A DNA stretch of 64,000 bases from Nitrosococcus wardiae (GTDB taxonomy: Bacteria > Pseudomonadota > Gammaproteobacteria > Nitrosococcales > Nitrosococcaceae), in assembly GCF_004421105.1 (NCBI RefSeq), contig NZ_CP038033.1:1-64000 (forward strand), read 5' to 3'. This document shows, in pieces, positions 19,197 to 59,853 of this stretch. Both the position numbers and the translations under genes were made by a program. The notes under the pieces are model-generated. The model was given only the letters and a program-made list of their open reading frames with translations, did not search any database and was not told the DNA's origin. Every line of letters starts with the position of its first letter. The first letter of the stretch is position 1.

Positions 19197-19207
19197 TGAG
19201 CACCCCC

Positions 19208-19438: not shown

Positions 19439-19645
19439 TTGTTGGCTCTTACTCCTATGTTTAGGAGGCCAACAGCAAGGCGGGGTAGCAACCAAGGGTT
19501 GTGTGTTAGTTTTACTAACTGGTACACTTTGTCTTGTTAACCCTAAGTTAACGACCCTTAGCCCAATAATTAGGCTGGGTAAAAATGTCGAGTTACTTGC
19601 ACTAACTACGACCATGTTTTAAATGCCTTGCTGAAGGCCGATTGT

Positions 19646-19690
19646 AAAAAACAAAAACCCCGTTACCGTTGGCGCGGTGCGGGGTTTCCC
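19646..19690 (-). terminator. Rho-independent terminator of the integrase gene
   Basis: Stems AACCCCG (19656-19662) and CGGGGTTT (19680-19687) form a hairpin, followed on the minus strand by a TTTTTGTTTTTT run. It lies about 100 nt past the integrase stop codon. A plus-strand reading also has a T-rich tail, so it may work in both directions. Confidence 0.7.
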
Positions 19691-19784
19691 TTTATAGGAC
19701 CCCGCAGGGTTATCCAATACAGTACCACGTTTTAATATTGCTTGCAATAAGCATTTGTTTTCGTTAACAAAAATATTAATACAG

Positions 19785-23966: not shown

Positions 23967-24231
23967 GGGGACGCTCCTTTATCTCCTCCAGGCGAGTCCG
24001 CGTTACCGTTTCCAGCCGTTCCTGCAACCGCCCTAGAGTGGCCTGGGTTTCCCGTAGTTCAGCAAGCAACTCCTCCACCTTAGGGGAATACCGTAATTCC
24101 TCCAAATGCTCCCGCTTCGCCGCCTCCAAATTATTCAAAACCACCGCCATAAACCGCTCAAAAGCCTTGGTTTCCACCAAGTTTCGACAATATTGTTTTA
24201 GGGCTAAAGGATGTGTTTGTTCTACCGACAT
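23959..24231 (-). CDS. Small coiled-coil protein inside the yej operon
   Basis: A 90-residue, highly helical protein with heptad-like charge patterns (about 45-85: EELLAELRETQATLGRLQE). It has no signal or membrane segment and I do not recognise a family. It begins 2 bp after the yejE stop and overlaps yejF by 8 bp, so it is surely translated with the transporter. It could be an accessory or assembly factor; that is inference. Confidence 0.75.
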   Translation of the reverse strand: MSVEQTHPLALKQYCRNLVETKAFERFMAVVLNNLEAAKREHLEELRYSPKVEELLAELRETQATLGRLQERLETVTRTRLEEIKERPLD

Positions 24232-24233
24232 GA

Positions 24234-29332: not shown

Positions 29333-29736
29333 TACCCGGGAAATGCCATAAAAAGCGGGTCAGATTGACCTCGCCGGTTCACTTTGAACCGGTTCATATT
29401 GCTCCTAGAGCAGCATGAGGCCTTATAGGGGAAAAGGAAATATCGCCCCGGCCCCCTTCTTCACCCACTATCTTCTTCTCTTCTCCAGATTTGGGCTCTA
29501 TTGGAATGCATTCTGCATATGCACTTATAGAGTTAAGAGCAATTACAGGTAAAGTGATGCTATGAGTCCCAAACAAAGCCAACGGTCAACCACCATATGC
29601 TGTACAACGGGCCGAAAATTTTACTTCTTATTTAAGTTAATTCCTTGATTAACTGATGTATTATACTTTTAATTTGCTATGGCGATATGACTGCCTTAGT
29701 CGCAAGGATAACCCCCCGAGGCAAGGGGCTGTATCT
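29333..29736. other. Intergenic region before the outer-membrane factor gene
   Basis: A perfect 7-bp inverted repeat (CCGGTTC at 29374-29380, GAACCGG at 29386-29392) follows the activator gene and may stop transcription, though no T-run follows. The rest is AT-rich DNA with no gene I can support, and presumably the promoter of the downstream gene. I saw no convincing -24/-12 sigma54 site. Confidence 0.4.
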
Positions 29737-31221
29737 ATGCGGGAGAGTAGAGAAATGCGGGCTCAAACCCAAAAATTAGTGCTTCATCGTTTACTCTCCA
29801 TCGCTTATCCTGAGTACCAAAACGGTATGCTTAACCTCGTATTGCTATGGCTTATTGTCGGCATTTGTTTACTTATTTTGCCCTCTTGCGCCAATTTGGG
29901 TGGCCCCGCCTACCAACGCCCGGAGCTTCCCGTTAAAAAGGAATGGTCACGGGGCACCTCGACAGCAGAAGCAATACGATTGGACTGGTGGACTGCCTTT
30001 GGCGATCCCTACCTTGACAGTCTGATCGAAAAAGCGATTGCCCAAAGCATCGACCTTAAAATATTAGCTGCCCGCAGCGAAGTTGCAGAAGTGGCCATCG
30101 AGCAAGCAAGAGCGGGGGCACTACCCACCGTAAATTTAGGATTTGGAGTAAACACCCAGAAGGTTACCGGACAATCTTCAACCACCCAGTACAACGCCGC
30201 CAGCGCACTGAACTGGGAACTGGATATCTGGGGCAAGTTTAGAAAGGGTGTTAAGGCGCAAACGGCTGCTTATAAAACCACCGAGGCAGATTGGCGAGCA
30301 GGATATTTAACGTTAGTCTCCAATGTTGCCACCTCCTATTTCCAAATTCGCCAATTCGATGAACAAATCCAGCGGCAACAAGCCTACTTGAACCAGAATG
30401 AGGAAATCTTAGCCATCTATGAGTCCATGCATCAAGAAGGGCTCATTCCCGAAACCCAGATATTGCAACAGAAAGCAGAAATTAGCCGACTGAACACGGG
30501 GCTGCTAGAACTCCATCGCTTACGCACCGTCACTGAAAATGCCCTAGCCACATTGCTTGGAATTCCCGCCGGTGAACTGCAAGTTCCCCGTAGTTATCTC
30601 CAGGACAGCGTAGATATCATTGGCGTACCTTCAGGTCTACCGGCAGACCTCTTATCACGGCGGCCCGATATTATCGCTGCAGAATACCGTATTCTTCAAG
30701 CCCATGAACTCTCTGGTCAGGCGAAGTTAGCCAAGCTTCCCTCCATCACATTGACAGCCAGAGGGGGCACCGCTAGCTTTGAGTTGACTGATTTAATGAA
30801 AATGTGGACTTTTGGAATTATGCCGTCCATCAATTTTCCTATCTTTGATCCCAACATTAATGCGCGAATCAAAGTAAGCAAGGCTGAAGCTAAAGTAGCT
30901 GCGGAGAAATATCGCCGCACGGTATTCCAGGCCTTTGAAGAAGTTGAAAATGCACTCACGAATTTGGCAAGCCGAAAAGAACAAAAAAGAGAATTAGAGC
31001 AACAAATTGTCGATCTAAAAATTGTCTCGGATCAGATCCAGGCCCAATTGGAGGAAGGCTTAATATCTCAACTGCAGGTTTTTGAGATTCAACGATCCTT
31101 ACTAGCGGCAGAACTGGCCATGCTCAGCAATTATCAACAAATTCTATCCAGCACTGTCACCCTATATAAAGCGCTAGGAGGTGGTTGGCCAAAGACGAAT
31201 ATCCAGCAATCCCTTCAATAG
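29737..31221 (+). CDS. TolC/NodT-type outer-membrane efflux lipoprotein
   Basis: Up to 494 residues. The start at 29737 has AAGGGG 8 nt upstream; an internal ATG at 29827 gives a more standard lipoprotein signal but a weak ribosome site. The lipobox LPSC follows a hydrophobic segment, then YQRPELPVKKEW and DWWTAFGDPYLDSLI typical of NodT/OprM. Two TolC-type outer-membrane efflux repeats cover about 120-480 (SRRPDIIAAEYRILQA in the second). It is the probable outer-membrane channel for the exporter 5 kb downstream. Confidence 0.9.
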   Translation: MRESREMRAQTQKLVLHRLLSIAYPEYQNGMLNLVLLWLIVGICLLILPSCANLGGPAYQRPELPVKKEWSRGTSTAEAIRLDWWTAFGDPYLDSLIEKAIAQSIDLKILAARSEVAEVAIEQARAGALPTVNLGFGVNTQKVTGQSSTTQYNAASALNWELDIWGKFRKGVKAQTAAYKTTEADWRAGYLTLVSNVATSYFQIRQFDEQIQRQQAYLNQNEEILAIYESMHQEGLIPETQILQQKAEISRLNTGLLELHRLRTVTENALATLLGIPAGELQVPRSYLQDSVDIIGVPSGLPADLLSRRPDIIAAEYRILQAHELSGQAKLAKLPSITLTARGGTASFELTDLMKMWTFGIMPSINFPIFDPNINARIKVSKAEAKVAAEKYRRTVFQAFEEVENALTNLASRKEQKRELEQQIVDLKIVSDQIQAQLEEGLISQLQVFEIQRSLLAAELAMLSNYQQILSSTVTLYKALGGGWPKTNIQQSLQ

Positions 31222-31261: not shown

Positions 31262-33764
31262 ATGTACGCCGTCGCAGAAAAAAGATTAAATGTTGCACTC
31301 AAGCCCTTGTCTCATCCCGAGCTAGGCAAAATCCTCGTAGAGGAGTCTTTATTTCCTATTGGCCGCAATGAGGCACCTTTTTCAACCTATCCACGGGATT
31401 TGATTGCCGCACTTTCCCGACGCCATGCGCGAATATTTAAGGAAAATAATAGGGTTTATCTTGCCGATCTGGGTTCCCATAATGGGACCACTGTCAATGG
31501 TAACCCTATTTGCAACACTCCCCTAGAACTTCACTCTGGTGACCAAATATGTTTTGCCGGCATACTGACTTATCAGGCGGATATAGTCCAGTATAACTCT
31601 CCCCATGCTGCCTCAGAACCTATAACTCCTTCCATTCGCCTTACTCTTGTCCCGCACCGAACAGATACCAACCTTGCTTCCATTGTGATTTCCCAGTTCC
31701 CGTTTCTAGTTAGCAAAACCAACGAAATTTTTCTGCGGTACAAAGATCAACACCCACAAGAAGTTAATTTTATTTCCCGGCGTCATGCCCATTTTTTTTA
31801 AAAGAGGGTGCTCTCTACGTTGAAGACCTAGGAAGCACCAACGGAACCTTTGTTTCAGGCAGCCGCTTAGATGAGCATGCAAGGCACCTTAACAATGGCG
31901 ATACAATTGCCTTTGGTGGAAATCATTTTGTTTATACGATAGCCATGGAGGGCTCTGAGGATCAGGAGCTCAAAATATCCGACCGACCCTCATATTCCAC
32001 AAACCGGGTCGATCGACTCCATCCAGAACCAGCAAAAACAACTTTTGTAGCCTCCGCGACTTCTTTTTTGGATATTTTTTGCATTGACGAGGAGAAAGCC
32101 GGCAATCAACCTACAAACGGTGAAGATAGCAGTTCTGCTGCTAGCACTCATTCTTCCCAATCTTCTGCCAAAGACCAACCATCAATAAGCAACACCACCC
32201 CAAGATGGATTAGAAAAGCAAAAATTTTTCTTTCAGAAGTAAATAATGAACTTTCAGAAAAAGATCCCAAGAAAAGAAAACGATTTCGTATCATTTTAGC
32301 AACTACCGCCGGAACGCTTATTCTTGCAGTAGGCGTTTACCTGACGAGCAACCACCAACAGGAAATTGAAGAACTGCTCGAACAGGGTCATTATGGAGAA
32401 GCCGTTTCTCTAGCCAACGAGTACTTAGAAAAGAATCCTGAGAACAAAGAAATTAAAGATCTGGCAACAGAAAGTTTGCTTAAATCAATAATGCCTGACT
32501 GGATAGCACAACTTGACAACCATGCCTTTGCAAACGCGAATGGGATAGTAGAGCAGGCTAAGTATCAGAACCCGCTTAATAGCGATCTCCTACCTATGCT
32601 AAAGCTATTAGGCTGGATCGTCGACATGGAAGAATTTATTTATAAACGTGGCGGCCTTGATACACCGATTACCATCTATAAGCATGAAAATTCAATCAAC
32701 TCCTTAATTGAGCGGTGGGATAGCGAACGGACAAACAACCGTCGCTTAATGACTCATATCCTTACTCTAGCTCCGGAGTTTAAATCCGTATATAACCAAA
32801 TTTTTAGCTCTCTACGAACCTTACAAAACGAGAAGGCAGCTTATCTTACTGCAATCGAGAAATTAAAGACCACCATAAAAGAAAAACTTGAATTCAACAA
32901 GGCAAAGGAGCTTACATCCATATTTAAGGAGTTCTCTGATAAATACCCCCGCATTAACGGTATTGATAATCTGCAATCTGATCTGGAAAAGTACCTCACG
33001 TTCCAAGCGGATATCGGCCAAACCAACGCTATTCATATTTCCAAAAAAATTAAGACATTAGCACCCATTACTCCACCATTTAAAGAAAAGTTAGCTGAGT
33101 TGCAAGCTGCTGTCATGTTGCCCCCTAAAATCAATGAGCAATTTCAACAGGCGTCTGAAGCCTGGCAGTCAGGGCAGATACGGCAGTCACTGTCACTGTT
33201 AAAAAGCCTAAACCATGGGGAATGGACAGAGCTAGCAAGCCAAAGGCTACAGCGAAATACACAAATTCTTCGGAATTTTCTTACCTTAAAAGAGGCACAG
33301 GAGAGCGATAATTATAGAGAACACTTATTCACCTTCTATAATTCTTTAGATCCTGAACAAGATATCTATTTTCACGCCTTCTTGCCGAAGATTTTAAATA
33401 CCATAAAGAGAAAGCTCTGGCTAAAGCGCAAGAAATAATAGCCAGAGCCCAAAAACAATGGTCCACTTATCTAGAAGAAGGAGGGATTGAGGGCATTCAT
33501 CAACTCGAGACTACTATATCAGATACTTTTAGAGTACGGTCTCACCTGTTAACCCAGGCTCATAATTATTTGGCCGAAGCCATGCATACTTATAAATTAA
33601 TACAGCTTGATTTCCCCGCTGAGGCCAAAGTCCTCTACCAGAAAATTATCCGAGAAATTAGATTACAACGGCAATCATTAAGGGAATTAAGTATGGTATT
33701 AGACAATGCTTTGCTAGAAGCCAAACTCAAGCTCATTGTGGAGCCTTCTTATAGTAATCAATAG
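31262..33764 (+). pseudogene. Double-FHA membrane protein with helical C-terminal domain, two frameshifts
   Basis: Three frames join into one protein of about 834 residues. FHA 1 (FPIGRNEAPF, LSRRHARI, GSHNGTTVNG) is followed by a second FHA (SRRHAHF, then GSTNGTFVSG in the next frame), a Ser/Thr-rich linker, one membrane helix (IILATTAGTLILAVGVYL, encoded at about 32290-32345) and a large TPR-like helical region. A base is missing in the T8 run 31792-31799 and another in the T4 run 33392-33395. Either consensus error or recent inactivation would explain this. It would read two phosphothreonines in the cytoplasm and reach into the periplasm. Confidence 0.8.
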
Positions 33765-33838: not shown

Positions 33839-35215
33839 ATGAGTTCAAAAGAACGCAGCTATAAAAGCTTTCCTGAGGCTTTAGGAGAGCATAGTACCGA
33901 GGGCATTGCCATATTGACCTCTGAGCCTTCACGTCTCATGGGAGCCACGATCGGTGTTTTGGTCGCACTGCTGCTTGCCGGTATCATCTGGTCTTTTGTA
34001 GGGCGAGCAGATGTGATCGTCACTACCCACGGTTCTCTAAGTCCAGACTCTGAAGCACGCCGCTTTTATGCTCCTATTGGTGGTGAAATCGTGGATATTT
34101 ATATGGCTGAGGGACAACCCGTACTCAAAGGTGATGTCCTCGCCCGTCTTAATGCACGGGGAGCCATTGAAGCAGCAACAAACGCCCTGGATGCAGAACT
34201 CAAACTTGCAGAAGTAGAACGGGAATACAAGGCATGGCCTGAGCGAAAAAGCCTACTCATGCGTCAAGCCGAAGCCCTTAAAAAACAAATTGCCATTGCT
34301 GAAGAACGCCATAAAAAGCGGGTATCGGAGGTCCTAAGGAAACTGGCCGAGGCCCAAAAAGCAAGACTAGAAGAAGCACGAGGAACACTTGATAAAGCAG
34401 CAAGGCAACTGGAAATCGCCAAACGCAAATGGGAAAAATATAAGCGACTATTCAATAATCCGGGAGGAGGAGGCGTTTCAAAAAATCAAGTTGAAGAAAA
34501 GAAAAGTGATTATCTTTCCGCCGCAACCAATTATCGGATCGCTAAAGCTCAGTTTGGAAAACTAGATTATGAATTGAGCAATGAGTATTCACAAGCCAAA
34601 TCGTAACTAGAAGGAAGCGATCAAGAGCTAATCAAACTTCGAATTAAATATGAGGCCCTCCTTGATGACATCAAGCGAGAGGAAAACCGGCTACTCATAA
34701 ATCTTCGCGGTGCTCGCTTGGCTGCAGAAGCAGCCTCACGGATTAAATTTGAAAACATTGACGAAGATAATTTCCTACGTATTCTGGCGCCTGTTTCCGG
34801 TGTTATCACTGAAATCACCTATACCCAGATCGGAGACAAAGTCCAAGCTAACACTCCCCTAGGTGCCATCGCCCCTGAAAAGTCGAGAGCCATCCTGAAA
34901 ATTGAGATTCCAGAAAAAGATCGGGGATTTCTTGAAGAAGGCTTACCCGTGAAAGCCAAATTCAGCGCTTTCCCCTATCAACGCTATGGCGCGATTGATG
35001 GAACACTAGAGTATATTTCGCCGGCGGCGAAACCCTCCTCCCAAGATAAAAATCTAGTGTATACAGGCCATATAGGGTTAGAGAAGACTTATTTCTCTAT
35101 CGAGGAGGTTGACTATCCTCTACGGTATGGAATGACAGCCACAGCAGAGATCGTGGTCCGAGAGCGGCGTTTGATTGATTTGGCATTAGATCCTTTCCGG
35201 AAGGTGGCTGGCTAA
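33839..35215 (+). pseudogene. HlyD-family membrane fusion protein, in-frame stop
   Basis: 458 codons with one internal TAA at 34604-34606. One N-terminal membrane helix (about 43-62), a biotinyl-lipoyl-like half (PIGGEIVDIYMAEGQPVLKG), a long coiled coil (about 120-310), then the second lipoyl half (ILAPVSGVITEITY) and a beta-barrel. These are the parts of a periplasmic adaptor linking an ABC exporter to TolC. The stop lies in the coiled coil and would leave a non-functional piece; a single G-to-T change from GAA would explain it. Export genes follow on the same strand. Confidence 0.85.
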
Positions 35216-35295: not shown

Positions 35296-36048
35296 ATGAA
35301 AGATATCGTAAGAATTGATGACGAAGTTATCACTGCTGATGCTTTTCTAAAAACGCTCAAACTCACTGGACGATTTGAAGAGCTTATTGAGGAAATGGTT
35401 AGAGATAAGCTCAAGGTTCACGCCGCTAAACGGCGGGGAATTTCCTTAACGACTAATGAGGTCCAAGAGCGGGCCGATCAATTCCGGCGTGTCTACGGTC
35501 TGCACCGGGTTAAAGACATGAATCAATTTCTTGATGCTATTAGCGTTTCTCTAGATGACTTTGAAAACTTCATTATTGAGATCCTCTATCAAGAAAAGAT
35601 CATGGCTGAAGTTTGTAGTGAGGACGCCATAGAAGAATACTTCCGGATGCACTCACCAAAATTTGAAAGCATTGAATTGGGTCATATTGTCCTCAAATCC
35701 GAGGGTAAAGCAAAAGAAATTTTTTCCATTCTCGAAGAAGAACCGGAACTTTTCCCAGAATTAGCAAAGGAGCACTCCATCGCAGATACCCGAGACCACC
35801 ATGGCATGGTTGGCAAAGTGCTGCGAGGTTCATTGTAAACGGAAGTTGAGAGTAAAGTTTTCAATGCCCCTGTTGGCGAACCTCTTGGCCCCTTCGCATC
35901 TAGTGATGGCTCTTTTTTTGAAATTTTTAAGGTAACTGCCAAGCATGAGGCTAAACTTGATGAAGAAACGAAGTCCGAGGTACGCCGTTTAGTCGTGGAT
36001 GATTGGTTGTCTATCCAGGCCCAGGAACACCGAATAGAAGCATTGTAA
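35296..36048 (+). pseudogene. PpiC/SurA-like peptidyl-prolyl isomerase, in-frame stop
   Basis: 250 codons with an internal TAA at 35836-35838. The SurA-N-like helical part (about 1-110) is followed by a parvulin domain (ELGHIVLKSEGKAKEIF, FPELAKEHSIADT, then after the stop APVGEPLGPFASSDGSFFEIF). It lacks a signal peptide, so it may act in the cytoplasm on the export substrate. Similar foldase genes accompany C39-type exporters in some cyanobacteria and other bacteria (recalled, not checked). It lies 7 bp before the ABC gene. Confidence 0.8.
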
Positions 36049-36055
36049 TCCGCCT

Positions 36056-39000
36056 ATGGCTAGAAGGAGTCCTTTTGTGAGTAACGAAGCCCTCGTTGAA
36101 TTCCTTTCTTCTGTCGAAATTCTCTCTGTCTTTAGCCGCTCGGAAATAGAAGAATTAGCGGCGCAAGCCGAATCAAAATTCTTTGATCTTGGTGATACTG
36201 TCTGCCAGGTCGGTGACACCAGCAGTGGTCTCTATATTGTCAAGTCCGGGATGGTCCGCATTTTTACCGAACAGATAGGAAAGGAAATTAGTATGGGACT
36301 GCGAAAACAGGGGGATGTTTTCGGTGAGATTGCGATTATTCGGGAATATCGGCATGAATCCTCGGTGCGCGCCTCAGCAAAGACAGAGATTTTATTTATA
36401 CCACGTGAAGCATTTTTACCTCTCTTAGAAAAGAGCAAGGATACGCAAAAATTTATAGCCAGTTATGTGGCGATACGCTCCGCAGGCGGGTTTATCTCCC
36501 AACTTTTTGACCTGCGTAAAAAAGTTAGCCAAAGTGAGGTTGAGAATTTAGTGCGCAGCGTTGGCATCAAACGGGTAGAGCCTGGGCAAATCATTCTCGA
36601 ACAAGACTCCCGCAAAGATCGACGACTGTACGTTGTACGCCAAGGTGAAGTAAGCATCCTCCGGGAGGAGCATGGTACCAAGTATCATCTCGCCACCTTA
36701 CACCAAGGAGATATTTTTGGCGATAAAGCTTGCCTATTGCGGCAAGAACAACCTGTTTCCGCCGTTGCTGATACTGATACAACCTTATTAGTCATTCCAG
36801 AACAAGCTGCCCACTTCATGTTGGAGCGCAATCCCAAGCTCCGAGAAATACTTGAGGAACGGATTCAATTTACCGAACGGGAATTGCACCGCCAAAGAAA
36901 ACTCGCCGAACGCCGGAAGCGCCCTTTAATGCTCGATTTACATTCAAAACCAAGACGGGGTGAAAGAATTATCCGGCGTTTTCCTTTGGTTGAGCAAGCT
37001 GAAGAGATGGACTGTGGGGCAGCTTGCCTATCAATGATTTGTAAACACTACGGCATTCCTATCACAATGGGAAAGCTACGTGAGATGGCAAACGTCACCA
37101 CTGAAGGTGCCACCCTTGATAGTATAGCCCGAGTCGGTGAAGCACTTGGCTTCACTACCCGCGGAGTACAATGTACTTACCAGTCTCTCTTGGGTTTTGA
37201 ACTACCATTTATCGCCCATTGGGAATGGTTATCACTATTTCGTTGTCTACGGTATTTCCGATGAACATGTCTGGGTTGCAGATCCTGCCATCGGTTTCCG
37301 AAAATTTACAGTAGAGGAATTTGAAAAAGGCTGGAGTGGTACCTGCTTATTATTTACGCCAGGCTCAGACTTAGTACAGATTGCAACTACTCGCTCACCA
37401 TGGCTTCGCTTTATCAGGTATCTCAAGCCCCATAAGAAAATGCTTGCCCATATTTTCTTGGCTACTTTTATTATCCAAGTCCTTGGTGTAGCCCCCCCAT
37501 TATTATTCAATATATTTTAGATCGGGTAATTGTCCATCAAAACGTTGATCTTCTTCATCTGCTAATTGTCGGTTTGGTAATAACGAATATTTTTATGCAG
37601 CTGACATCAATGCTGCGTGCTTTTTTATCTAACTTTATGATACGAAAAATGGACTTTGCGATGATGTCAGAATTCTTTAAGCATACCCTATCTCTACCCA
37701 TTTCCTTTTTCTTTAAACGCAAAACTGGCGATATCTTCGCGCGCTTCCAAGAAAATCAGACTATACAGGCATTTTTAACCGAATCGACCATCACAACTGT
37801 TCTTAATCTATTGATGGTTTTTATCTATTTCACCGCCCTCTTTTTCTAGAATGTCAAGATGACCTTAATCCTTATTGGATTTGTCATCCCATTACTGATT
37901 TTAACCGTTTCGGTAACGCCAAAACTAAAAAGATACGCTCGTGAAGCCTTTGCTGCCTCGACCGAGTCGGAAGCAATTCTCATGGAAACGATTGGGGGAG
38001 CAGAAACTATCAAAGGGATGGGAATCGAGCGGCCGATGCGCCTAAAATGGGAAAAGAAATATGCGCATTCCCTTGAAGTCCAGTATCGGGCCCAACAGTT
38101 TCAAATTCTAGTAGGCCTTGCCAGCCAACTTTTAAATGCTGCCACGACAGTAGTTATTTTATGGATAGGCGCTAGCCTTGTCCTGGCCCAAGAACTGACC
38201 ATCGGTCAATTGATTGCTTTCAATGCCCTGATGGGCAGTGTCATGTCGCCATTGCTAGGGCTTGTGGGGCTCTGGGATCGGCTTCATGAGGCCGGCGTGG
38301 CGATGGAACGTCTGGGGGATATCCTGGATATGGAACCCGAACAAAAGCCCCAGGACTTACCCTCTCGCATCGTGCTGCCGGATGTGGAAGGCAATATCCG
38401 CTTTGAGAATGTCTATTTCCGGTATGGGGGTAATGAAACGCCCTATGTGCTTGAAAACCTCAACTTTGAAATTAAAGCGGGGGAGTTGATCGCTATTGTT
38501 GGCCATAGCGGTTCAGGAAAAACAACGCTAGCCAAACTTTTGGTTGGTTTCTATGGCCCTACAGAAGGCCATATCCTTGTTGACAGCTACGATATGGCGG
38601 TAGTCGATAAAGAAGCCTATCGAGCACAAATTGGTTATGTAATGCAAAATAATTTGCTATTTTCTGGCACTATTGCTGAAAATATTTCGGCAGGTGACGA
38701 AAACCCAGATGGCCGGCGGATTGAAGAAGTTGCCAAAATGGCTGATGCCCATGGATTTATCAGCAAAATGCCCTTGGGGTATGAACAGATCGTTGGGGAA
38801 CGGGGGGTAGGCCTCTCTGGGGGACAAATTCAGCGCATCTGCATTGCCAGAGCCCTTTACCATGATCCCCGTTTACTCATTTTTGACGAGGCAACTTCTG
38901 CCTTAGATACTCAGTCTGAAAGTAATATTTTAAAAAGTATGCAAGATATACTCAGGGGGAGGACCGCAGTAGTCATTGCACATCGGCTTAGCACCATCAT

Positions 39001-39127
39001 GCGGGCCGATAAGATCCTGGTCCTCTATAATGGTGCTATTGTGGAGCAGGGACAGCACCAAGAATTGGTGAACAGGAAGGGGATGTATTACGAACTTGTT
39101 CAAAAACAAATGTCGGGCGGAGCATGA
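36056..39127 (+). pseudogene. C39-peptidase ABC exporter with two cyclic-nucleotide-binding domains, disrupted
   Basis: About 1023 codons. Two cNMP-binding domains come first (about 20-135 with GDVFGEIAIIREYRHESSVRA; about 150-265 with GDIFGDKACLLR). A C39 peptidase follows (EEMDCGAACLSMICKHYGI with the catalytic Cys; His in GYHYFVVYGI; Asp in VWVADPA). Then come six membrane helices and an ATPase with Walker A GHSGSGKT and signature LSGGQIQRI. An extra G near 37220, a lost C in the run 37492-37498 and a TAG at 37847-37849 break the frame. Proteins of this class cleave double-glycine leaders and export the peptide. Confidence 0.9.
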
Positions 39128-40386
39128 AACTATATAACCTCAAAAGTAGTTCGGCTATTTCCTACGGTGGTCTCATTGAGAAGATCGAAATTTTGCGCTC
39201 TACACTGCGATGGGCAACCAAGTTAGAACGTCCCGAGATACAAAAACTCCTCAGCCAATGCAATGCTTTGCGCGATGAAGTTATGCGGCTGTCACATAAA
39301 GAACGTTTTGTAACCGCCTCGGCCACTACTGAAGCGCGCGCGAATCTACCGGCTAAAGAGCGGCGTCAAGCCTTAATAGATCGCAGCTTTGTCTTTGAAG
39401 GTGTATTTGGTGAAAGTCCAAAGTTATTGGAAACACTAGAAATTGCCGAAAAAGCAGCACCGACCGATCTCCCTGTACTCATTGAGGGGGAGAGTGGCAC
39501 GGGGAAGGAGTTGTTGGCAAAAGTGATCCATGCCAATGGAAGCAGAGAGGATAAACCCTATATTTCTGTCAACTGCGGTGCAATCCCACAAGAGTTGCTT
39601 GAATCTGAACTGTTTGGTCATAAAAAAGGCGCTTTTACGGGGGAATCCTCTGATCGTAAAGGAAAATTCGAGAGCGCTGATGGGGGGACTATCTTTCTAG
39701 ACGAGATAGGTGAGTTACCCCTTCATGGTCAAGTCAAGTTGCTTCGGGTACTACAGTCCAATGAAGTCCAACGAGTCGGCTCTGACGAAATCACCCAGGT
39801 AGATGCTCGAATCGTGGCAGCCACCAATCGAAATTTACGGGAAATGAGTCAGCAAGGGAAATTCCGTGAGGATTTATTTTATCGACTCAGCGTCATTCAT
39901 GTCACTCTGCCCCCTTTGCGAGAACGTCGAGATGAGATTGCACTACTTTTTGAGTATTTTATCGATGAGGCTGCTGAAAAACTTAACCGTCGCCCCATCA
40001 AAATGGCGCCACGACTAAAAACGTTTTTATCAAACTATAGCTACCCTGGCAATGTTCGAGAACTGCGCAATATTATCTTTCGCCTCTCTTGCCTAGCCGG
40101 TGAAATCGCCGATTATGAACATTTACCGGATTATATTCGCCCCCAAAGCACATCCTCCCAACTAGTGAACGTTGACAAGCTCGGAATAGGAAGCTCTCTA
40201 AGCGAGGTCAAAAAGGCGGCCAGCGATGAAGCTGAAAAACTTTTCCTTGAAAGGAGCCTTCGGGAAATGAACGGTAAAGTAACGGAACTGGCTAAACAAA
40301 TTGGAATGAATCGTTCCCACTTACAAACTCTTTTAAAAAAACATGGTTTAAGTGCCAAAGATTTCCGCTCCAGGAACCCGGGGTAA
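39124..40386 (+). CDS. Sigma54 activator with a GAFTGE loop, no sensor domain
   Basis: A 420-residue protein. The first 85 residues are helical and of no known sensor family. The AAA+ domain (about 97-335) has Walker A GESGTGKE, Walker B GGTIFLDEIGEL and an arginine-finger region. The sigma54-contact loop reads GAFTGE instead of the near-universal GAFTGA. A Fis-type helix-turn-helix closes the protein (KVTELAKQIGMNRSHLQTLLKK). The start overlaps the exporter stop (ATGA), so expression is tied to the exporter. With the altered loop, sigma54 engagement may be weakened or altered. Confidence 0.9.
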   Translation: MKLYNLKSSSAISYGGLIEKIEILRSTLRWATKLERPEIQKLLSQCNALRDEVMRLSHKERFVTASATTEARANLPAKERRQALIDRSFVFEGVFGESPKLLETLEIAEKAAPTDLPVLIEGESGTGKELLAKVIHANGSREDKPYISVNCGAIPQELLESELFGHKKGAFTGESSDRKGKFESADGGTIFLDEIGELPLHGQVKLLRVLQSNEVQRVGSDEITQVDARIVAATNRNLREMSQQGKFREDLFYRLSVIHVTLPPLRERRDEIALLFEYFIDEAAEKLNRRPIKMAPRLKTFLSNYSYPGNVRELRNIIFRLSCLAGEIADYEHLPDYIRPQSTSSQLVNVDKLGIGSSLSEVKKAASDEAEKLFLERSLREMNGKVTELAKQIGMNRSHLQTLLKKHGLSAKDFRSRNPG

Positions 40387-40405: not shown

Positions 40406-41197
40406 TCATGGGTTTGACATTAATGGATTTAGGAGGGTTATCGTTCCATCTATTTGATCTTCGGCACATACCACCACAACAGTCACATTATCTCTTCCTC
40501 CTCTTTCAAGTGCGAGCTCTACTAACATTTCAGAACTTTTCTGGCAACTTTCCTCCTTAAGTATCCCCTTGATATCTTCATCGCTCACCTCGTTATGGAG
40601 ACCATCACTACATAGAAGAAAAATATCACCACTTTTGGCCTCTAAGGTACCCCTATCCAACTCCAGGGTATCAACAGCACCGACCGCCCGGGTAATCGCC
40701 CCTGCCGAGGGATGATTCTGGGCTTCCCTCCGGTCGAGCAAACCATGGTTAATAAGTGCTTCTACATGACTATGATCGTGGGATAGTTGTCTCAACCTCC
40801 CATCCCGGAAAACATAAATCCGGCTATCACCTGCCCAAAGATAGATACAATGCTGACCGTAACTAAGCAGTACAACGACGGTACTACCGATGACTCGCTC
40901 ATTGCGAACAGCAGCTTCCTCCCGTAAACGGTGATTAACTTCTTGTAAACGACGTCGAACCTCTGCCTCGAATGCTTCTAAATCAGGCTGGTAGGGCATA
41001 TCAGCCAGGGTACCCACTACCATCTGACTAGCCACATCCCCAACGGCATGTCCCCCCATCCCGTCCGCAACGACCCAAATACCATAGTCGCTTCGCTCCA
41101 AAAATGAATCCTCATTAATTCTACGGATTTTACCCCTATGGGTTCGGGCTGCTGAGCGCCAGTGGAGCGCACCTTTATTACTCATAGAAAACTTCAC
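40406..41197 (-). CDS. PP2C-family Ser/Thr protein phosphatase
   Basis: A 263-residue protein. PPM-family metal-binding motifs are present: RRINEDSFL, VVADGMGGHAVGD, WAGDSRIYVFR, HSHVEALINHG, FLLCSDGLHNEV and GGRDNVTVVVV. It is cytoplasmic, the size of Stp/PppA phosphatases, and would remove phosphates added by the kinase at 46864-48137. The gene is convergent with the upstream activator, separated by 19 bp. Confidence 0.95.
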   Translation of the reverse strand: MKFSMSNKGALHWRSAARTHRGKIRRINEDSFLERSDYGIWVVADGMGGHAVGDVASQMVVGTLADMPYQPDLEAFEAEVRRRLQEVNHRLREEAAVRNERVIGSTVVVLLSYGQHCIYLWAGDSRIYVFRDGRLRQLSHDHSHVEALINHGLLDRREAQNHPSAGAITRAVGAVDTLELDRGTLEAKSGDIFLLCSDGLHNEVSDEDIKGILKEESCQKSSEMLVELALERGGRDNVTVVVVCAEDQIDGTITLLNPLMSNP

Positions 41198-43767: not shown

Positions 43768-46700
43768 CTATTGAGCATGGGCAAACAGCTGTGGCTCCTT
43801 TACTCTCTTGGCAGCTAACCGCGCCGGAAAAAAGAAAAACTCTCCCGCTTCATGCCCAGCATATTTTATCGGTACATATTGGGGATCTTGTTCTACACCT
43901 AAAGCGTCTGCTGCCTGGACTACACGTTTTTGTATCTCATTGTATAAACGAAAACCTTCCAGGATATCATTATTCTCCTGGAGTACTTCCAGAAAAGCCT
44001 TTGCAAAAATAGAGTGATCTCCTGCACCTGCATCCAGAACTGGTTTAAGGCCCCCTGATGTCAACGCAATACGCGCCTTAGTCTTGGCCATCACTTTAAA
44101 CCACTTTATTTTATTTTCTCCTGACATTCCAGTCTGTAAGCGGGCAAGGGATGAGCGAGTCAGCGCCCCTGAATAACAAGAATCCGCGACCACCAATATA
44201 TGTTTCGCAGCCATCACATTGAGAATATCGGTAATGGCAACATTAGAGATCCAATTGGCGCTACTACCTGGCTCAGAATCAACGGGAAGCCAATAACCCC
44301 GCAAATTGGCATTCTCCAGATGGCCATGCCCTGCATAATAGAGAAGGAAGTTGTCCTGTTCCGTCAACTTCTCCCGAAATTCATTCAGTGCAGAAAGAAT
44401 GGCGTAGCGATCCGCGTCAAGTAAAACTTTTGTGTTGAAACCATACTTTGCCTCCAGTATATCGGCCACTACCTGAGCATCCTCCCGGGCCGCTTTAAGG
44501 TCAGGGAGGTGTTTGTAGTGATTATTGCCAACGACTAGGGCATGGTAGTTGCCAAAATCAATGGCTTTTAGCTCTTTCGATCCCAATCCAGGAGGGTTTT
44601 CCCTTTCTACTTTTTGAGCTTTTATGGTTGCTGGAACAATTGAGAAATCCAAAGCGGTACGGTTTCCGCTACTATCGATGGCAACAATATTTACCGGGGT
44701 TTCTGGTCCCTGTATGGACAAGCGCAGCTTAAATAATCCATTTTCCCGTAGTTCCTGGGCTTGGTCATTAATACGAAAAGATAATAGCTCATCTTTTGGT
44801 GCCACTTTGCCCACAAGCTCTATATCCGATACAGCAGAACGCAAGAGGGCACTTAAACTGCCGCGGGTGGACGACAAGGGGGGTTCAATGATCTCAATAG
44901 AAGGCCCTACCGCTGATGTCTCTACAACGACAGTCATTGCCGAGGCTTCCGGAACCGTCAATTCCGCCATCAGTTGCTCAATCTTCTGCTTCTGTTGCTC
45001 AAGCTCGCGCTTTTGCTGCTTAATTCTAGCATCCCGACGCGCTAATTCTTCCTCTAAGGCCTTGATTTCTGCGTGGGCATCTTTTTGGCCTGCCACTAAA
45101 TCCACAAGCTGACTTTGCAATACCTTAATTTCTTCGTTGCGCTTATTCAGGGCAAGTTGTAGCTGCTGGGTTTTATCCTGTTCCTGGCGCCATTCTTCTG
45201 CTAACTTCGAACGCTGTTCTTGGAGTATGGATTCCAATGAAGCAATATTGTCTTTTTGGGTGTTAACGACGCTTTGAAGCTGATTTAATTTTGCTTTTAG
45301 GCGTTCAACCTCTGCGGCTTTATCTTCCTCAGCGCCTGTCGCTTCGAGGCGTTCAAGTTCCGCTCTCATCTGCTCACGTTGAGTTTGTGCCGTTTGGAGT
45401 TCGGTTCGTCGTTTCTCAAGCTCTTCCCGGGTCTGTTCTAAGACCTGGTGCAAATCAGCCGTTTTCAATTGCTGCTGTGCGAGTTTATCCACCAACCGCT
45501 GTTGTTCTTGCCGTTCTTTCTCTATTTTCCGCTCCATCTCTTGGATAGCAGCGGCTAACTGTTGGCGCGAGCTGACGAGCTGCGTTTGCAATGCCGCAAT
45601 ACGCTGATTACGTTCCTCCAATGTCTGCCGTAATTGCCGTTCCTCATGCTGCACAGTCTGGAGCTTAGCCTGCAAGCATTGCTGCGCTTCCCCTTGTCCA
45701 GCGCCTGATTTTCCCCCAAGTCCCTCCTGGGCCTGCTGCTCCAAGGCTTGGCGCAAATTGGCTGTCTCTAGTTGCTGCTGCGCTAAGCCCGATTAAACGC
45801 TGCTGCTCTTGTCGTGTTTCCTGTAACTGCGCTTCTAATTTGGCACGGGTTTCCTTATCTAGCGTGTCCCCTACTTTTTGAGCATCCGCATCCCCTGAGG
45901 GAGCTGGAAGCAGACGTCCTTGCTCCTCAAGCTGTTTTTGCTTTAATAAGATCTCTTCCTCAAGCTGCTTTAATAATAGTTCTCGTTCTTGTTCGGCCCT
46001 TTGCAACTCCGCTTGGCTACGCTCCAAGATTTCCTTGGCCTCGCGCAGCTGGCTCTGCAACTGGGCAACATTTTGTCTCAGCCTTACGGCTTCTTCTTTT
46101 ACCGCTTGGCGCTGCGCTGCTTCAATGGAAGAGACGAACTCTAAATCTCCCTCCGTCAGCCCGGATGCCTTCCGATACCAATTCATGGCAGTAGTGAGGT
46201 CCTGTGGGACCCCTAGGCCCGCCTCATAGAGATAGCCCAGGTTGATCTGGGCTCGGGAGTAGCCCTTGGGCAGCGGCCTTTTGGTACCAGTGGAAAGCCA
46301 ACTCATAATCCGCCTTTACGCCCAGCCCCTTTTCATAAATCTCACCGACATAGGTTTGTGCCGCGGGATCGCCCTCTTGAGCCTTGGGAAGCCATATTTT
46401 CAAAGCCGTGGCATAATTTGCCCGATCATAGGCCACATACTCCCCACCCCTGATTTCACAATCTATAATGGTGGTTTTGATCGGTCGACGGGGAGTCAGA
46501 TAGGTAAACTGCTGGCCAAGCTTTCTGACCTGCCCCGGAAGCAAACAGTCAACGATTAACAATTCCTCGGCGTTACCAGAATTAGCCCTTGTCTCCTCTA
46601 CCGACGCCGAACCTGCAGCACACCCCCCCAGGAACACCCCTAAGGCCACGATCAATATTAAAAGCGGTGGGCGCGATCCCTTTGAAAAAAACGCAACGCG

Positions 46701-46769
46701 TATCGGCGATATCGCTACCAATAATGAAGTTTTTCTATAATGAAATACGCTTAGCACAGCGAGAACCAC
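43768..46769 (-). pseudogene. Caspase-like (C14) lipoprotein with Sel1 repeats and long coiled coil, two frameshifts
   Basis: About 1000 codons in three frames. A lipoprotein signal (LGVFLGGC) is followed by a conserved N-terminal segment, two Sel1 repeats (YVGEIYEKGLGVKADYELAF; LGYLYEAGLGVPQDLTTAM), a coiled coil of about 450 residues, and a caspase domain with catalytic His in YYAGHGH and Cys in VADSCYSGAL. Both active-site residues are present. Extra G residues near 46263 and 45786 (plus-strand C runs) break the frame. As a lipoprotein it would act in the periplasm or at a membrane. It could process envelope proteins on a signal. Confidence 0.85.
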
Positions 46770-46863: not shown

Positions 46864-48137
46864 CTATTCATACTTTTGTAGCCTCAGCTTCTCAATTTTC
46901 CGGAGCGCTTTTTGGGCCTGTTCATTCTCTGGATCAATTTCTAACACCATTTTGTAAGCTTCATAGGCATTGCTGCCCGGAGGTTCGGTTAATCGCCCTA
47001 TTGCCGCGTGGGCTTCAGCAACATTAAGCAGATGTTCGATTCTTTCTTGATCCCGAGATTTCTTAAGAAATGCTTCTACCTGCTTTGGGGACTGATTGGA
47101 TTCAGGCCCTATAAGCGAGGGGAAAAAAAGAGGTAAGTCCCCACAAAGACTACAGCCAGCAATCCAATCCCCATGGTCCAGCGCCTGGTCCTGTGGATTA
47201 ATGATTTCTTCTCCGGGCTGGGCTCAATGAATACTCGGGTCTCTCCCGCCATTACTTGGGTAGGAAACAAACGCGAAGTCCCCGTTTTTTGAACTACCTC
47301 CCTCTCGGCAAGGCCAGAGAAATGATCAACGAAAGTGATTAATGCCCCCGCATCCTCAAATCGGTCATTAGGATCTTTAGCTAACAAGCGCTCCACAAGG
47401 GGCTGATAAGTGGCAAACTGAGAAGGTAAACTAGGAATAGGGCTTTGCGCATGCATCAAAATGGTAGCAATCGCGTCCTCTCCGATAAAGGGTTTTTGGC
47501 CTGTCAACATTTCATAGAATACGACCCCCAAGCTGTAGAGATCAGAACGTCCATCTAGCTTTTTGCCCGTCGCTTGCTCCGGACTCATGTATTCGGGTGT
47601 TCCAACACAGAAGCCCACTGCAGTCAACTGAGTATGAGCAGTCAGCGGTTTAGCGATACCGAAGTCAGTCAGAACGGCAGTGCCATCCTCCTTAAAGAGA
47701 ATATTCGCCGGCTTGACATCCCGATGGACAAAACCGTGAGCATGGGCATAGCCAAGGGCACTGGCAACTTGTCGGATAATTTTTAAAGGGCAGGCCAGGG
47801 GGGCTTGCTGCTGGATGCGCTGCTTAAGATTAGCCCCGCCAAGATACTCCATAGCCATATAGTAATAGTTACCAAAACAACCAACGTCATACACAGTGAC
47901 AATGCTCGGATGGCTTAATTGGGCGACAATCTTCCCCTCCTTTAAGAACCGCTCGCACAATGAATGGTCGATATCAAGAGGAGGCGTCATGATCTTGAGA
48001 GCAATCTTTCGATCGAGGGACTCCTGGATGGCAAGATAAACCTTCGCCATCCCCCCCTGACCGATCATCCTCTGGATCTTATAGCCAGGAATCTTCAGGG
48101 AAGAGACTTCTTTTGCCTGCTCCTCAGAAATGCTCAT
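46864..48137 (-). pseudogene. Hanks-type Ser/Thr protein kinase with membrane anchor, frameshift in the tail
   Basis: The kinase domain (about 18-275) is complete: glycine loop GQGGMAKVY, Lys in IALKIM, HRDVKPANI, DFGIAK and the GTPEYMSPEQ activation end. A membrane helix lies at about 322-340. A base missing in the A7 run 47123-47129 (plus strand) then shifts the frame. Beyond it about 88 codons encode a small TPR-like periplasmic tail ending at 46864. The uncorrected frame stops at 47109 and would still give an intact, anchored kinase. It probably phosphorylates the FHA partners of this locus. Confidence 0.85.
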
Positions 48138-48182
48138 CGAAAAAAATTCTATACTCTGTCATCTTCATGGCATGAGTTTGCC

Positions 48183-49028: not shown

Positions 49029-49220
49029 AGGCTGTAACTATCTCCTCCGGCGAGAAAAGAATAGGCCTCCGTACCCTCTCTCATTTTATGGAGGCTATGC
49101 TTGATCTTATGCATTGTTTAGCCCCCTTTGGCTTGGGTAATAAAGGAGAAAGTGAGAGATGGCAAAATGCCTAGCTAGTATACTGGATAGAGCACTCCCT
49201 GAATGCAAGGTAACGGAAAA

Positions 49221-50743
49221 ATGGCCAGATTAGTTAATATCTTAGTACTTGTTTTTACTTTTTTACTGGGGGGTAGCCTGCCTGCCTCGGCCGCAACCGA
49301 AAAAAGAGACATCGTCCTGCTCTTGGAAAATTCCCAAAGCATGCAGGAAAATGACCCCGAGTTTCTTACCCAAAAATTAGCCCTTAATCTCATCAATGGG
49401 CTAAGAGGCAATACCCAAATCGCCATCATCTTATTTGATGGAGGAACGTCTGTCGCGATGCCCCTCGTTCCCGTTTCCCAGGAAACACGGGATGCCCTGG
49501 CTGCTAATCTGGATAAACTCAGCTATAGCGGTCGCTTTAGAAATAGTGCCGCCGGGATGGAGCGAGCACTCTATGAACTAAAAATCTATGGCCGTCCTGA
49601 GGCTGAAAAAGCCATTATCTTATTAACTAACGGTCCCATTGAGACCGGTGACAAAAAACGGGACCGTGATTTCTCAAGATGGATGCAGGAATATTTAGCC
49701 CAGGAGGCCGCTGAGACAGGCGTTAAGGTATTCGGAATCGCATTTACTGAGGCGGCCGACTTCCATCTCATCCAGATCCTGGCCCATACGACAGGGGGAA
49801 CTTATTATCGAGCCCCGCAAGCCGCTGATCTGCAAGCGGCATTTAACCGAATTAGAAAGGCTATCACCCCTACCAGTGCAGCCCCAGCAGTGCCTGCCAT
49901 TGATATTCCAGGACTAGCGGCAGATTCTCCCTCATCCCAGGTAGAATCCCCTGTCTCTGAATCTACAGAAAACTCCGCAGCGCCGTTAAGTGCTGAAAAC
50001 CGGCTTCTCTCCCCCCCCAGCAAAAGGCTGAAGAGGGTACCTCTCCATCCCTGTGGGATACTCCTTGGTTACAGCCCTATGTGACCCAGTTAAAGGCGGA
50101 ATGGAAATGGATAGTTGCTATTGTCAGTCTGATGCTAACCACCATTCTCATCATGACAGCGTTGATCAAACGCTCCCGGCGAACCACCATTCCTGTGACC
50201 CCCACAGACGACGACAATTCCAGGAAATATATCCCACCGGCTCAACTCGAGGGCCTGACCCGTCCCTCCCACTACGATATCACCGGCAAACTCGCTTGGA
50301 TTAGTAGAGCACCTGGAGAGAATTCAAAAGATACGGCAACCATTTGCATTAAAGATGATGTTATCAGTCGGGACCATGCCCTCATTCAATACCGGGATAA
50401 TGCTTACTGGATAAGCGACCGGGGCAGCATTAATGGCACCTTTGTCAACGATGAAAAGATCACGGGAGAAAGGGCATTGCACAATGGAGATCGAATTCGC
50501 TTCGCCAAGTACGAATTCAGGTTTATCCTCCCCCATCGTACCGACATGGCGGATACCATGCTCATCCAGTCAGACAACTCAGATGAGCGCACCGAACTCA
50601 TTAGCCTAGACGACAGGGCCTCCCCTCAACCAACGGCACTACCTTCCCCCAATCCTTCTCCCCAGAATCACGATGATGAGGAGGCTACCATCATCCGACC
50701 CGTTGAGCGCAACGGGTCTCCACCGCTGAAACAGCAACGCTAG
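49221..50743 (+). pseudogene. vWA-FHA membrane protein, one frameshift
   Basis: The start at 49221 has AAGG 9 nt upstream. A signal peptide (FTFLLGGSLPASA) is followed by a von Willebrand A domain (about 25-200). Its metal site reads LLLENSQSM, so the usual first Asp is Glu. A Pro/Ser-rich linker follows, then one membrane helix (IVAIVSLMLTTILIMTALI) and a cytoplasmic FHA domain (ISRDHALI, GSINGTFVND). A base is missing in the C8 run 50011-50018. The layout would connect a periplasmic binding domain to a phosphothreonine reader inside the cell. Confidence 0.85.
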
Positions 50744-50793: not shown

Positions 50794-50994
50794 TCAGCTC
50801 TTCCGTCCAGAAGCCATCGCCCTTCTGGCCGCTAATGAATTAGCTAAGTTAAAACCAAGCCGCTCCAAAATGCTGCTAGGCTGGCTCTGCTGGGGATTTA
50901 ATCGAAACCGTGTACCGCCGCCTATTACCGCAGTCATTGCCTTCTGATCTAGCGCTACGCTTTCCGGGAGATCCTTAATAACGATATTAGCCAT
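50794..50994 (-). CDS. Putative double-glycine leader peptide, exporter cargo candidate
   Basis: 66 residues from ATG at 50994, with GAGG about 10 nt upstream. The first 27 residues resemble C39-peptidase leaders: an IVIKDLPESVALD stretch, hydrophobic positions, then AMTAVIGGG. Cleavage after GG (residues 25-26 or 26-27) would release a core of 39-40 residues that is basic, free of cysteine and rich in Arg, Ala and Leu. No modifying enzymes lie beside it, so it may be an unmodified bacteriocin or signal peptide. The C39 exporter at 36056-39127 is the plausible carrier. Confidence 0.65.
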   Translation of the reverse strand: MANIVIKDLPESVALDQKAMTAVIGGGTRFRLNPQQSQPSSILERLGFNLANSLAARRAMASGRKS

Positions 50995-51099
50995 AATGAC
51001 ATTCCTCATTGTCTCTTTGAATTTTAAAACTCCACCGGCTATTGACGTCGTATTTCCCACGCCCATGCCCTGTTCACAAATTTAGCACATTAGATCCCG

Positions 51100-51485
51100 T
51101 TACGAAAAAATCATCACCTTTTCCCCCACCTGAACACCGCTTAAAAGCTCGACACTTTCCGCAGAGCAAGGACGACCGGTCCTAACAAACCGCCGCTCTA
51201 ATCTGCCATCAGGATGTACCACTTCTACGAATTCCAATTGACCAATCCGTTGTACCGCCCCAGTAGGCACACACAGATGGACTCGTTCCTTGACGGGAAT
51301 TATCAACCGGCCAAACATCCCCTCATGTCCTTCCTCTTGGGCATAGCGAATAAAGTCGATCAGGACCACTGAATTCCGCACCACGATTCCGGCCAAGGCG
51401 ATCATGCCGATCATCGCCGTGGCGGTGAAATAGATAGGATTGGGATAACCCCCGAAATTATAAGTAAAGGCGGCAGTCCCTTGCC
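51100..51485 (-). pseudogene. Relic joining an RND pump fragment to a membrane-fusion-protein end
   Basis: Read on the minus strand, the 5' part encodes [20 protein letters not shown] and [13 protein letters not shown], a transmembrane segment typical of AcrB/CzcA-type pumps. It passes directly into [20 protein letters not shown] and a tail typical of RND adaptor proteins. The two belong to different genes, so a deletion has fused an operon. No start codon or complete domain remains. Confidence 0.75.
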
Positions 51486-59170: not shown

Positions 59171-59203
59171 GAAACCATTAATATGGATTGGAGCATTTTC
59201 AAT

Positions 59204-59446
59204 ATGCCCACACTGACCATAAAAAACATCCCAGATGATTTATACAATGCGTTGAAACATATTGCAGAACAGCACCATAGGAGCATCAACAGCGAAGTCA
59301 TTGTTTGTCTGAAAAAAACACTATTGCCTAGCCGTATCTCTCCAAATGAGAGACTCCAGAATATCCAATCTCTACGCTCCCAGATAACACCTGGAGTGAT
59401 TTCAACAGAGGAGATAGATCAAGCGATTAATGAAGGCAGGCCATGA
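59204..59446 (+). CDS. FitA-type ribbon-helix-helix antitoxin
   Basis: 80 residues from ATG at 59204, where GGAG lies 10 nt upstream; an ATG at 59183 lacks a site. The N-terminus (TLTIKNIPDDLYNALKHIAE) followed by HHRSINSEVIVCL is the Arc/FitA fold, which binds DNA as a dimer. The C-terminal part would block the toxin. The stop overlaps the toxin start (ATGA at 59443-59446). Confidence 0.85.
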   Translation: MPTLTIKNIPDDLYNALKHIAEQHHRSINSEVIVCLKKTLLPSRISPNERLQNIQSLRSQITPGVISTEEIDQAINEGRP

Positions 59447-59853
59447 TCGTTGCCGATACAAATGTTATTTCATCTCTGCTACTTCCCACACTATTTTCTG
59501 ATTCAGTGGATACACTGTACAGAATAGATCCCGTCTGGGCTGCCCCCTCTCTTTGGAAGAGTGAATTCAAAAATGTATTAACTCTTTACCTCAGAAAGGG
59601 CCTCATTACTCTTGAAAAGGCACTTCGACTCCAAGAGAATGCTGAATTGATGATGATAAATAATGAATTTGATGTACCTTCTCCTCATATCCTTGCGCTC
59701 GTAAATGAAAGCAAGTGTTCATCATACGATTGTGAATTTGTTGCACTTGCTCACCAGTTAAACACACCGCTCATAACCCAAGACAACAAATTGTTAAAAG
59801 AATTTCCCTCCATTGCTATTTCTATTTCTGAGTTTCTTGATAGAAAGTCCTAA
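59443..59853 (+). CDS. PIN-domain toxin, VapC/FitB type
   Basis: A 136-residue protein. The four PIN acidic positions can be picked out: Asp in VADTNVISSLL, Glu in WKSEFKNVL, Asp in SSYDCEFVALA and Asp in LITQDNKLL. These coordinate the metal for RNA cleavage. It is coupled to the antitoxin by a 4-bp overlap. Unlike the minus-strand array next to it, this pair lies on the plus strand and has its own operator. Confidence 0.9.
   Translation: MIVADTNVISSLLLPTLFSDSVDTLYRIDPVWAAPSLWKSEFKNVLTLYLRKGLITLEKALRLQENAELMMINNEFDVPSPHILALVNESKCSSYDCEFVALAHQLNTPLITQDNKLLKEFPSIAISISEFLDRKS

Follow-up and report, generated by a model that had tools for sequence, protein, structure and literature searches.

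C39 exporters commonly carry bacteriocins. In the account of LahT given in PMC6363468, hydrophobic pockets of the C39 domain take leader positions −4, −7, and −12, and change at −8 is tolerated. Cyanobacterial bacteriocin-type clusters, as described in PMC3140520, hold up to sixteen precursors each, and the C39/ABC proteins of their long type have about 300 extra N-terminal residues. In Azoarcus BH72 a protein with a weak C39 match was examined for another activity, as PMC3262810 relates. C39-exported double-glycine peptides are already known as a kind; our literature search found nothing on this leader family, on an exporter with two cNMP-binding domains in an FHA/sigma-54/PP2C context, or on its four-class cargo set. 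Here, we analyzed a 64,000-nucleotide stretch of the Nitrosococcus wardiae genome (contig NZ_CP038033.1, positions 1 to 64,000; hereafter the window) and a 66-codon gene within it. Judged from sequence, this gene likely encodes a precursor for a peptidase-containing ABC transporter (PCAT) exporter of type I secretion, the machinery for which appears to be decaying in its own genome.

The gene (50794–50994, minus strand) reads from an ATG to a single terminal stop, with the ribosome-binding sequence GAGGA (51003–51007, minus strand) 8 nt before the ATG. Its product comprises a 26-residue leader assigned from family alignments, MANIVIKDLPESVALDQKAMTAVIGG (50917–50994, minus strand), and then the core GTRFRLNPQQSQPSSILERLGFNLANSLAARRAMASGRKS (50797–50916, minus strand). 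The leader register places GG at residues 25–26 and predicts a cut after residue 26, which would leave a cationic core of 40 residues with a predicted mass of 4387.9 Da, a computed pI of 12, and a charge of +5.8. The sister species (G001) has a 66-residue orthologue at the corresponding place, ~13 kb from its exporter; between the two genes there are 10 nonsynonymous changes over 151 sites and 14 synonymous changes over 47 sites, and the resulting dN/dS of 0.18, low in leader and in core each, indicates that the protein is under purifying selection. These results bear out a first-pass annotation of the same DNA, which had described a 66-residue frame with an N-terminus ending in AMTAVIGGG, a good start, and a short basic core about 12 kb from a C39 exporter (11.7 kb to the end of the C39/ABC gene).

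The window peptide matched neither Pfam nor NCBIfam at E ≤ 1, and this covers the NHLP/Nif11-related precursors and other curated double-glycine families. NCBIfam gave only weak matches for its 30-residue N-terminus and for 30 family leaders (best TIGR04149, E 0.0033; 8 of the 30 at E ≤ 0.1; none convincing); the paralogues gave nothing convincing in curated families either. Shortness and the lack of a curated family match at the cut-off are what a chance open frame or an ordinary cytoplasmic small protein would show, but the conserved orthologue, the ribosome-binding sequence, purifying selection, and a family-wide leader tied to the exporter make such an origin extremely improbable. On this sequence evidence the 66-codon gene is genuine and beyond a chance frame. 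The predicted model of the class III peptide (the class to which this precursor belongs, see below) is weak (pLDDT 61.1), with helices at residues 10–25 and 42–61. A strongly amphipathic antimicrobial helix was considered for the core and is unsupported, the hydrophobic moment being at most 0.42.

A search of the own genome (G000) with the whole peptide returned, besides the peptide, eleven weaker hits with E from 0.017 to 3.1, each of them to the leader. Twelve leaders from this search formed a profile (A1) that matched 16 places in the own genome, 12 of which had gone into building it, and 15 in G001, all with E below 1e-4; three rows at E 0.15–0.74 (two in the own genome, one in G001) were left out. 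Congeners G002 and G003 gave no match to A1 at E ≤ 0.001, and the N-terminal 389 residues of the exporter, found in G001 at E 3e-249, were matched in these two at E about 1e-7 or weaker.

Across 220 family leaders, L at −12 was present in 215, M at −7 in 205, and V or I at −4 in 209, positions that also guided the register, and G at −1 in 206, the register having been set to put G at −2 so that this position is no independent count. Further residues are specific to the family, namely D at −19 (216), L at −18 (211), D at −11 (194), and R at −3 (164). The window leader has V at −4, M at −7, and L at −12, the hydrophobic positions needed for C39 recognition, and carries Ala at −8 in place of the Glu of the ComA consensus. 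With these residues at −4, −7, and −12, the positions taken up by the LahT pockets, the family leaders agree with known C39 recognition. Together, these leaders form a distinct and apparently undescribed double-glycine family common to many small bacterial peptides.

Using two conserved heptapeptides of the exporter alignment, we scanned a collection with one genome per species (84,980 species) and obtained 298 matches, 274 of them exporter relatives, from which the best 80 loci were kept. These 80 belong to Noviherbaspirillum, Paraburkholderia, Caballeronia, Cupriavidus, Aromatoleum, Trinickia, other Burkholderia-type records, and gammaproteobacterial bins. A leader profile built from G000, G001, G231, and G202 only, and from none of the 80 loci, detected leader genes at 72 of the 80 (184 frames at E < 1e-3), and there were no leader matches among reversed or shuffled control ORFs. 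Every one of 18 exporter genomes tested, including all eight without a leader at the locus, carries 1 to 18 leaders, as detected with a profile (A7) that includes leaders from other loci among the 80.

Presence across genomes followed the same pattern. Among 299 genomes from the family of Paraburkholderia xenovorans, leaders were found in 114 (E ≤ 0.001) and the exporter in 109 (E ≤ 1e-220; one of these exporters is only 501 aa long): 109 genomes have both, 5 leaders only, 185 neither, and none the exporter only. Leaders therefore occur in 109/109 exporter genomes versus 5/190 exporter-less ones (Fisher p 2e-76), a comparison within one family whose related genomes share descent, so the counts are not phylogenetically independent. 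One of the five leader-only genomes contains an exporter fragment with stops; in the remaining four, nothing closer than weaker ABC or C39/ABC relatives was present. In a class sample of 323 evenly drawn genomes, leaders were matched in 5, and all three genomes whose exporter reaches at least 70% identity (the own genome, G231, whose order, at 2 genomes, is too small to be useful, and G202) are among them; of the other two, G060 shows a weak leader match over 17 positions that contains a stop, while in G239 one clear leader match stands without an exporter at E ≤ 1e-80. Homologues lacking the GG motif or a C39 exporter, which the first-pass annotation had named as evidence against its proposal, were thus largely not what these genomes showed. 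The leader anatomy, the linkage at 72/80 loci, and the co-occurrence of 109/109 versus 5/190 strongly support the prediction that the peptide is of a kind carried by this exporter clade.

In G001, the exporter operon runs from TolC through a two-FHA-domain protein, HlyD, a PPIC-type isomerase, and a 1016-aa exporter to a sigma-54 activator, and the exporter unites two cNMP-binding domains, a C39 peptidase, and an ABC transporter in one protein. This gene order is kept in ten of 11 loci compared, the exception being Noviherbaspirillum L125, where TolC, FHA, and HlyD had no match; the sigma-54 activator adjoins the exporter in all 11, and a PP2C homologue is present in 7, with only a short stretch of sequence available for two of the four loci in which it was not found. 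Modification enzymes, noted as absent by the first-pass annotation, were likewise not found by Pfam among the nine G001 system proteins, the clusters of relatives having been searched for G001 homologues only; within this scope, an unmodified product fits.

Compared with G001, the operon is broken in the window. The TolC-type outer membrane efflux protein (29656–31221, plus strand), the sigma-54 activator of the AAA+ type (39124–40386, plus), and the PP2C-type phosphatase (40406–41197, minus) are intact, as is an FHA-domain sigma-54 activator (27998–29332, plus). The frame of the two-FHA-domain protein (31262–33761, plus; 832 aa in G001) is broken twice; the HlyD membrane-fusion protein (33839–35215, plus; intact at 473 aa in G001) has an in-frame stop at 34604, and the PPIC-type peptidyl-prolyl isomerase (35296–36048, plus; intact at 250 aa in G001) one at 35836. 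The two-cNMP-C39-ABC exporter (36056–39127, plus; intact at 1016 aa in G001) is interrupted, being out of frame at ~37.2–37.5 kb, where the C39 domain ends, and another stop follows at 37847. Toward the peptide gene, frames are broken in a Sel1-caspase protein (43768–46757, minus), in a Ser/Thr protein kinase (46867–48152, minus) after the kinase domain, and in a vWA-FHA protein (49203–50743, plus) that is split near 50.02 kb. In G001 the peptide gene is preceded by RND, TolC, and HlyD genes of the same orientation. These three have been deleted from the window, and only 44 RND residues (aa 985–1028) and 78 HlyD residues (aa 284–361) are left upstream of the peptide (51103–51453, minus).

Counted against G001, 10 of the 15 genes that make up the system or lie in its neighborhood are broken or deleted versus 1 of 8 flanking genes (Fisher p 0.027), with the split between system and flank being our own choice. 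The single flanking case is a 289-aa gene reduced to a remnant. The intact flank comprises oligopeptide transport genes, PCMT, the FHA activator, a 256-aa gene, and cytochrome c peroxidase. The remnant, at 23962–24243, corresponds to a gene that is whole in G001 between oligopeptide transport genes and looks ion-channel-like by eye. Leader genes read as damaged number 4 of 16 in the own genome and 0 of 15 in G001 (p 0.10, not significant alone); the second glycine is changed in two, the usual start codon lost in one, and the core truncated in one. Elsewhere in the window, two copies of a primase/integrase segment (736–2926, truncated, and 16638–20990) look by eye like a duplicated, decayed integrative element, and two overlapping small genes at 59183–59853 resemble a VapBC-type toxin-antitoxin pair, again by eye.

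Were the interruptions sequencing errors, the exporter would still be functional in this genome, and the low dN/dS retained by HlyD (0.04), the isomerase (0.10), and the N-terminal part of the exporter (0.05) fits such a situation. Yet three in-frame stops together with frame breaks fall within one operon, the adjacent RND-TolC-HlyD genes are physically deleted, and both the system-versus-flank contrast and the cargo-gene damage point the same way, so that we hold sequencing error to be very unlikely; the low dN/dS of the interrupted genes only says that the decay is recent. Since the HlyD, isomerase, and C39/ABC genes are all interrupted, the window peptide is probably stranded, an orphan in its own genome, and neither processed nor exported now. 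The break in the exporter had escaped the first-pass annotation. The first-pass proposal of C39 exporter cargo hence stands for the exporter clade and is doubtful for the exporter of this genome.

The own genome has one other C39 match at E ≤ 0.001, a stand-alone peptidase of 243 aa at ~1.04 Mb (locus L012). Besides an outer-membrane-type protein, its locus (L012:3554–7203) encodes three small proteins that look secreted and carry an L-x4-MDxVTAG-like motif similar to the LDxxAMxxVxGG of the leader. We take this locus to be reminiscent of Fap systems. Processing of the window peptide by this peptidase was considered and is unlikely, as the enzyme and its small neighbors look secreted by eye.

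With respect to regulation, 122 of 183 cargo genes have a sigma-54-like box that scores at least 21 of 24 in the 350 nt before them (the 184th had too little upstream sequence and was left out). Among 1000 stretches drawn at random from these loci, which include coding DNA and are not matched intergenic DNA, 31 have one. TGGCA-type boxes stand 81–89 nt before the start in 13 of the 14 class I genes of G000 and G001. Upstream of the window peptide, only CGGGATCTAATGTGCT was found, at 89 nt, and its score of 17 against a control mean of 17.4 is background; boxes were at background (15–18) also for the TolC, PP2C, vWA, and two sigma-54-activator genes of the window and for the TolC and RND genes of G001. 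The kinase, phosphatase, and FHA proteins may act on the sigma-54 switch.

The cores of the 184 leader frames were assigned to four classes by a composition rule, partly by eye: 103 N-rich cores (class I), 8 of a FANV/NxQ type (class II), 62 starting with APWVYGWI (class IV), and 10 short basic cores (class III), with one unassigned. One of the ten (L190), a truncated class IV, was dropped, and class III was aligned as 12 sequences, i.e., the window peptide, its G001 orthologue, one G231 member, and nine from the loci, where reading of the flanks placed it in Noviherbaspirillum (1), Aromatoleum (3), Trinickia (2), and gammaproteobacterial bins (3). R at −3 is absent from 10 of 12 class III leaders versus 46 of 208 other leaders.

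In Aromatoleum L144, classes I, II, III, and IV and then PP2C follow one another on one strand with short gaps, and in Noviherbaspirillum L125 and the two Trinickia loci the same classes lie on one strand with other genes interspersed. In G000 and G001 the classes are scattered, with class II adjoining 7 of 14 class I genes. One class I and class II cargo pair is situated just outside the window (G000:C1:64388–64827), 13 kb beyond the window peptide. Another leader-peptide pair is shared by the two species (G000:C1:3815425–3815709, L019; G001:C2:1038570–1038942, L075): one of its peptides has PGPTFP-type repeats whose number differs between species (core 23 vs 49 aa), and the other has a glycine-rich SLAIGGLVGGITAAALGEKVGETAAKLW core that looks more bacteriocin-like than the window peptide.

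We propose that sigma-54 promoters would switch on the cargo genes, with the FHA proteins, kinase, and PP2C phosphatase acting upstream, that the C39 domain would cut the precursor after GG, and that HlyD and TolC would carry the core out of the cell; in relatives, class III genes are found alongside those for the N/Q-rich peptides of classes I, II, and IV. Tentatively, the peptide set may be secreted surface or matrix material with class III as a cationic accessory part, a possible role for which we count the N/Q-rich partners, their multiplicity, the lack of a clear immunity gene in six loci, and the precedent of PteB and EbfG1–4. A later paper reportedly describes a cell-surface and matrix protein of the PteB/EbfG system. 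The surface-material idea draws on composition and analogy, and modeling of class I by AlphaFold2 (mean pLDDT 50.8, no strands) gave it no fold evidence. With a functional amyloid of the curli/Fap type in mind, 33 members of class I were compared with Pfam at E ≤ 0.1, and neither an amyloid family nor anything else convincing came up.

The first-pass annotation had instead thought of a bacteriocin or a signal. If class III cores were unmodified antimicrobial peptides leaving through the C39 system, with the N/Q-rich peptides as carriers or serving a separate function, their cationic nature (pI 11.7–12 and charge +2.6 to +8.8 over 11 computed cores) and strong sequence variation between genera, as in arms races, would be accounted for; PMC10986499 notes that C39 exporters commonly carry bacteriocins, and the Cdz peptides treated in PMC5380434 are small, type I-secreted, and kill on contact from the surface. 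Two Trinickia loci have, beside class III on the opposite strand, a conserved 77–81-aa gene that could be an immunity gene, but none of the nine other class III loci contains a match to it at E ≤ 1e-3, and no other small neighbor of class III was clear by eye in six loci. The ORF list likewise shows, by eye, no clear immunity gene beside the window gene, and in L144 only some 55 and 107 nt separate class III from the genes on either side. Moreover, the core is only weakly amphipathic, its dN/dS is low too, and the set is dominated by N/Q-rich cores, which together leave an antimicrobial role for class III rather unlikely. In the Trinickia loci (L176:16513–17387 and L186:16611–17513), the 77–81-aa protein is accompanied by an LRAT/NlpC-like protein (by eye), between class III and class IV on the other strand; these genes are possible further system parts or an immunity gene.

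In a second alternative, class III would be secreted as a signal that kin perceive and would control the FHA/kinase/sigma-54 circuit. The class has a single copy in each of the nine exporter loci that have it, versus an often multi-copy class I, regulators lie in the same cluster, and Gram-positive C39 exporters release pheromones according to PMC10986499. A signal of this kind is nevertheless improbable here: no sensor was identified for class III, its cores are poorly conserved between genera in the alignment of 12, and among the 80 loci, as far as their flanks were read, it is confined to the four groups listed above.

We thus return to surface or matrix material as our preferred, if tentative, reading of the peptide set. 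More speculatively, and with considerable doubt, the loci could represent a widespread, undescribed beta-/gammaproteobacterial system in which a cyclic-nucleotide-gated C39 exporter has its own kinase, phosphatase, FHA, and sigma-54 circuit, four co-regulated peptide classes assemble outside the cell, and the hypervariable class III serves as a strain-specific part (a kin marker or an antimicrobial tip), with the window captured just after the loss, when cargo genes outlive their exporter. At the best 80 loci, the leader profile picks out 184 candidate substrates for exporters in which cyclic-nucleotide-binding, C39, and ABC domains are fused, many of them in genera with cultured strains (e.g., Paraburkholderia and Cupriavidus), making cleavage, nucleotide gating, and function directly testable. 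The window adds a natural loss in which the exporter is broken and cargo genes are still present.

Set against known systems, the window leader has GG at −2/−1 and hydrophobic residues at −4, −7, and −12 in common with the ComA/LahT-type double-glycine leaders described in PMC6363468, and it departs from them in the Ala at −8 and in D −19, L −18, and D −11, which are peculiar to the present family. Cyanobacterial bacteriocin-type clusters, as presented in PMC3140520, likewise hold HlyD, a SurA/PPIase-type gene, and, in their long type, a C39/ABC gene; compared by gene content, the present operon adds TolC, an FHA protein, a sigma-54 activator, and, in 7 of 11 loci, PP2C nearby, and its leader family differs. 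HetC of Nostoc also joins cyclic-nucleotide-binding, C39, and ABC domains in one protein, for which the account in PMC10986499 gives no membrane-fusion gene nearby and an unknown substrate, whereas here there are two cNMP domains, HlyD and TolC, and a clear substrate family. Cdz of Caulobacter likewise sends two or more small peptides through type I secretion and, in the description of PMC5380434, has glycine zippers and a dedicated immunity protein; the class I–IV cores appear by eye to be without such zippers. Finally, in Synechococcus elongatus several small double-glycine proteins, EbfG1–4, likewise pass through one C39 transporter, PteB, and enable biofilm formation, as reported in PMC4997328, a likeness to the present peptide set at the level of the system.
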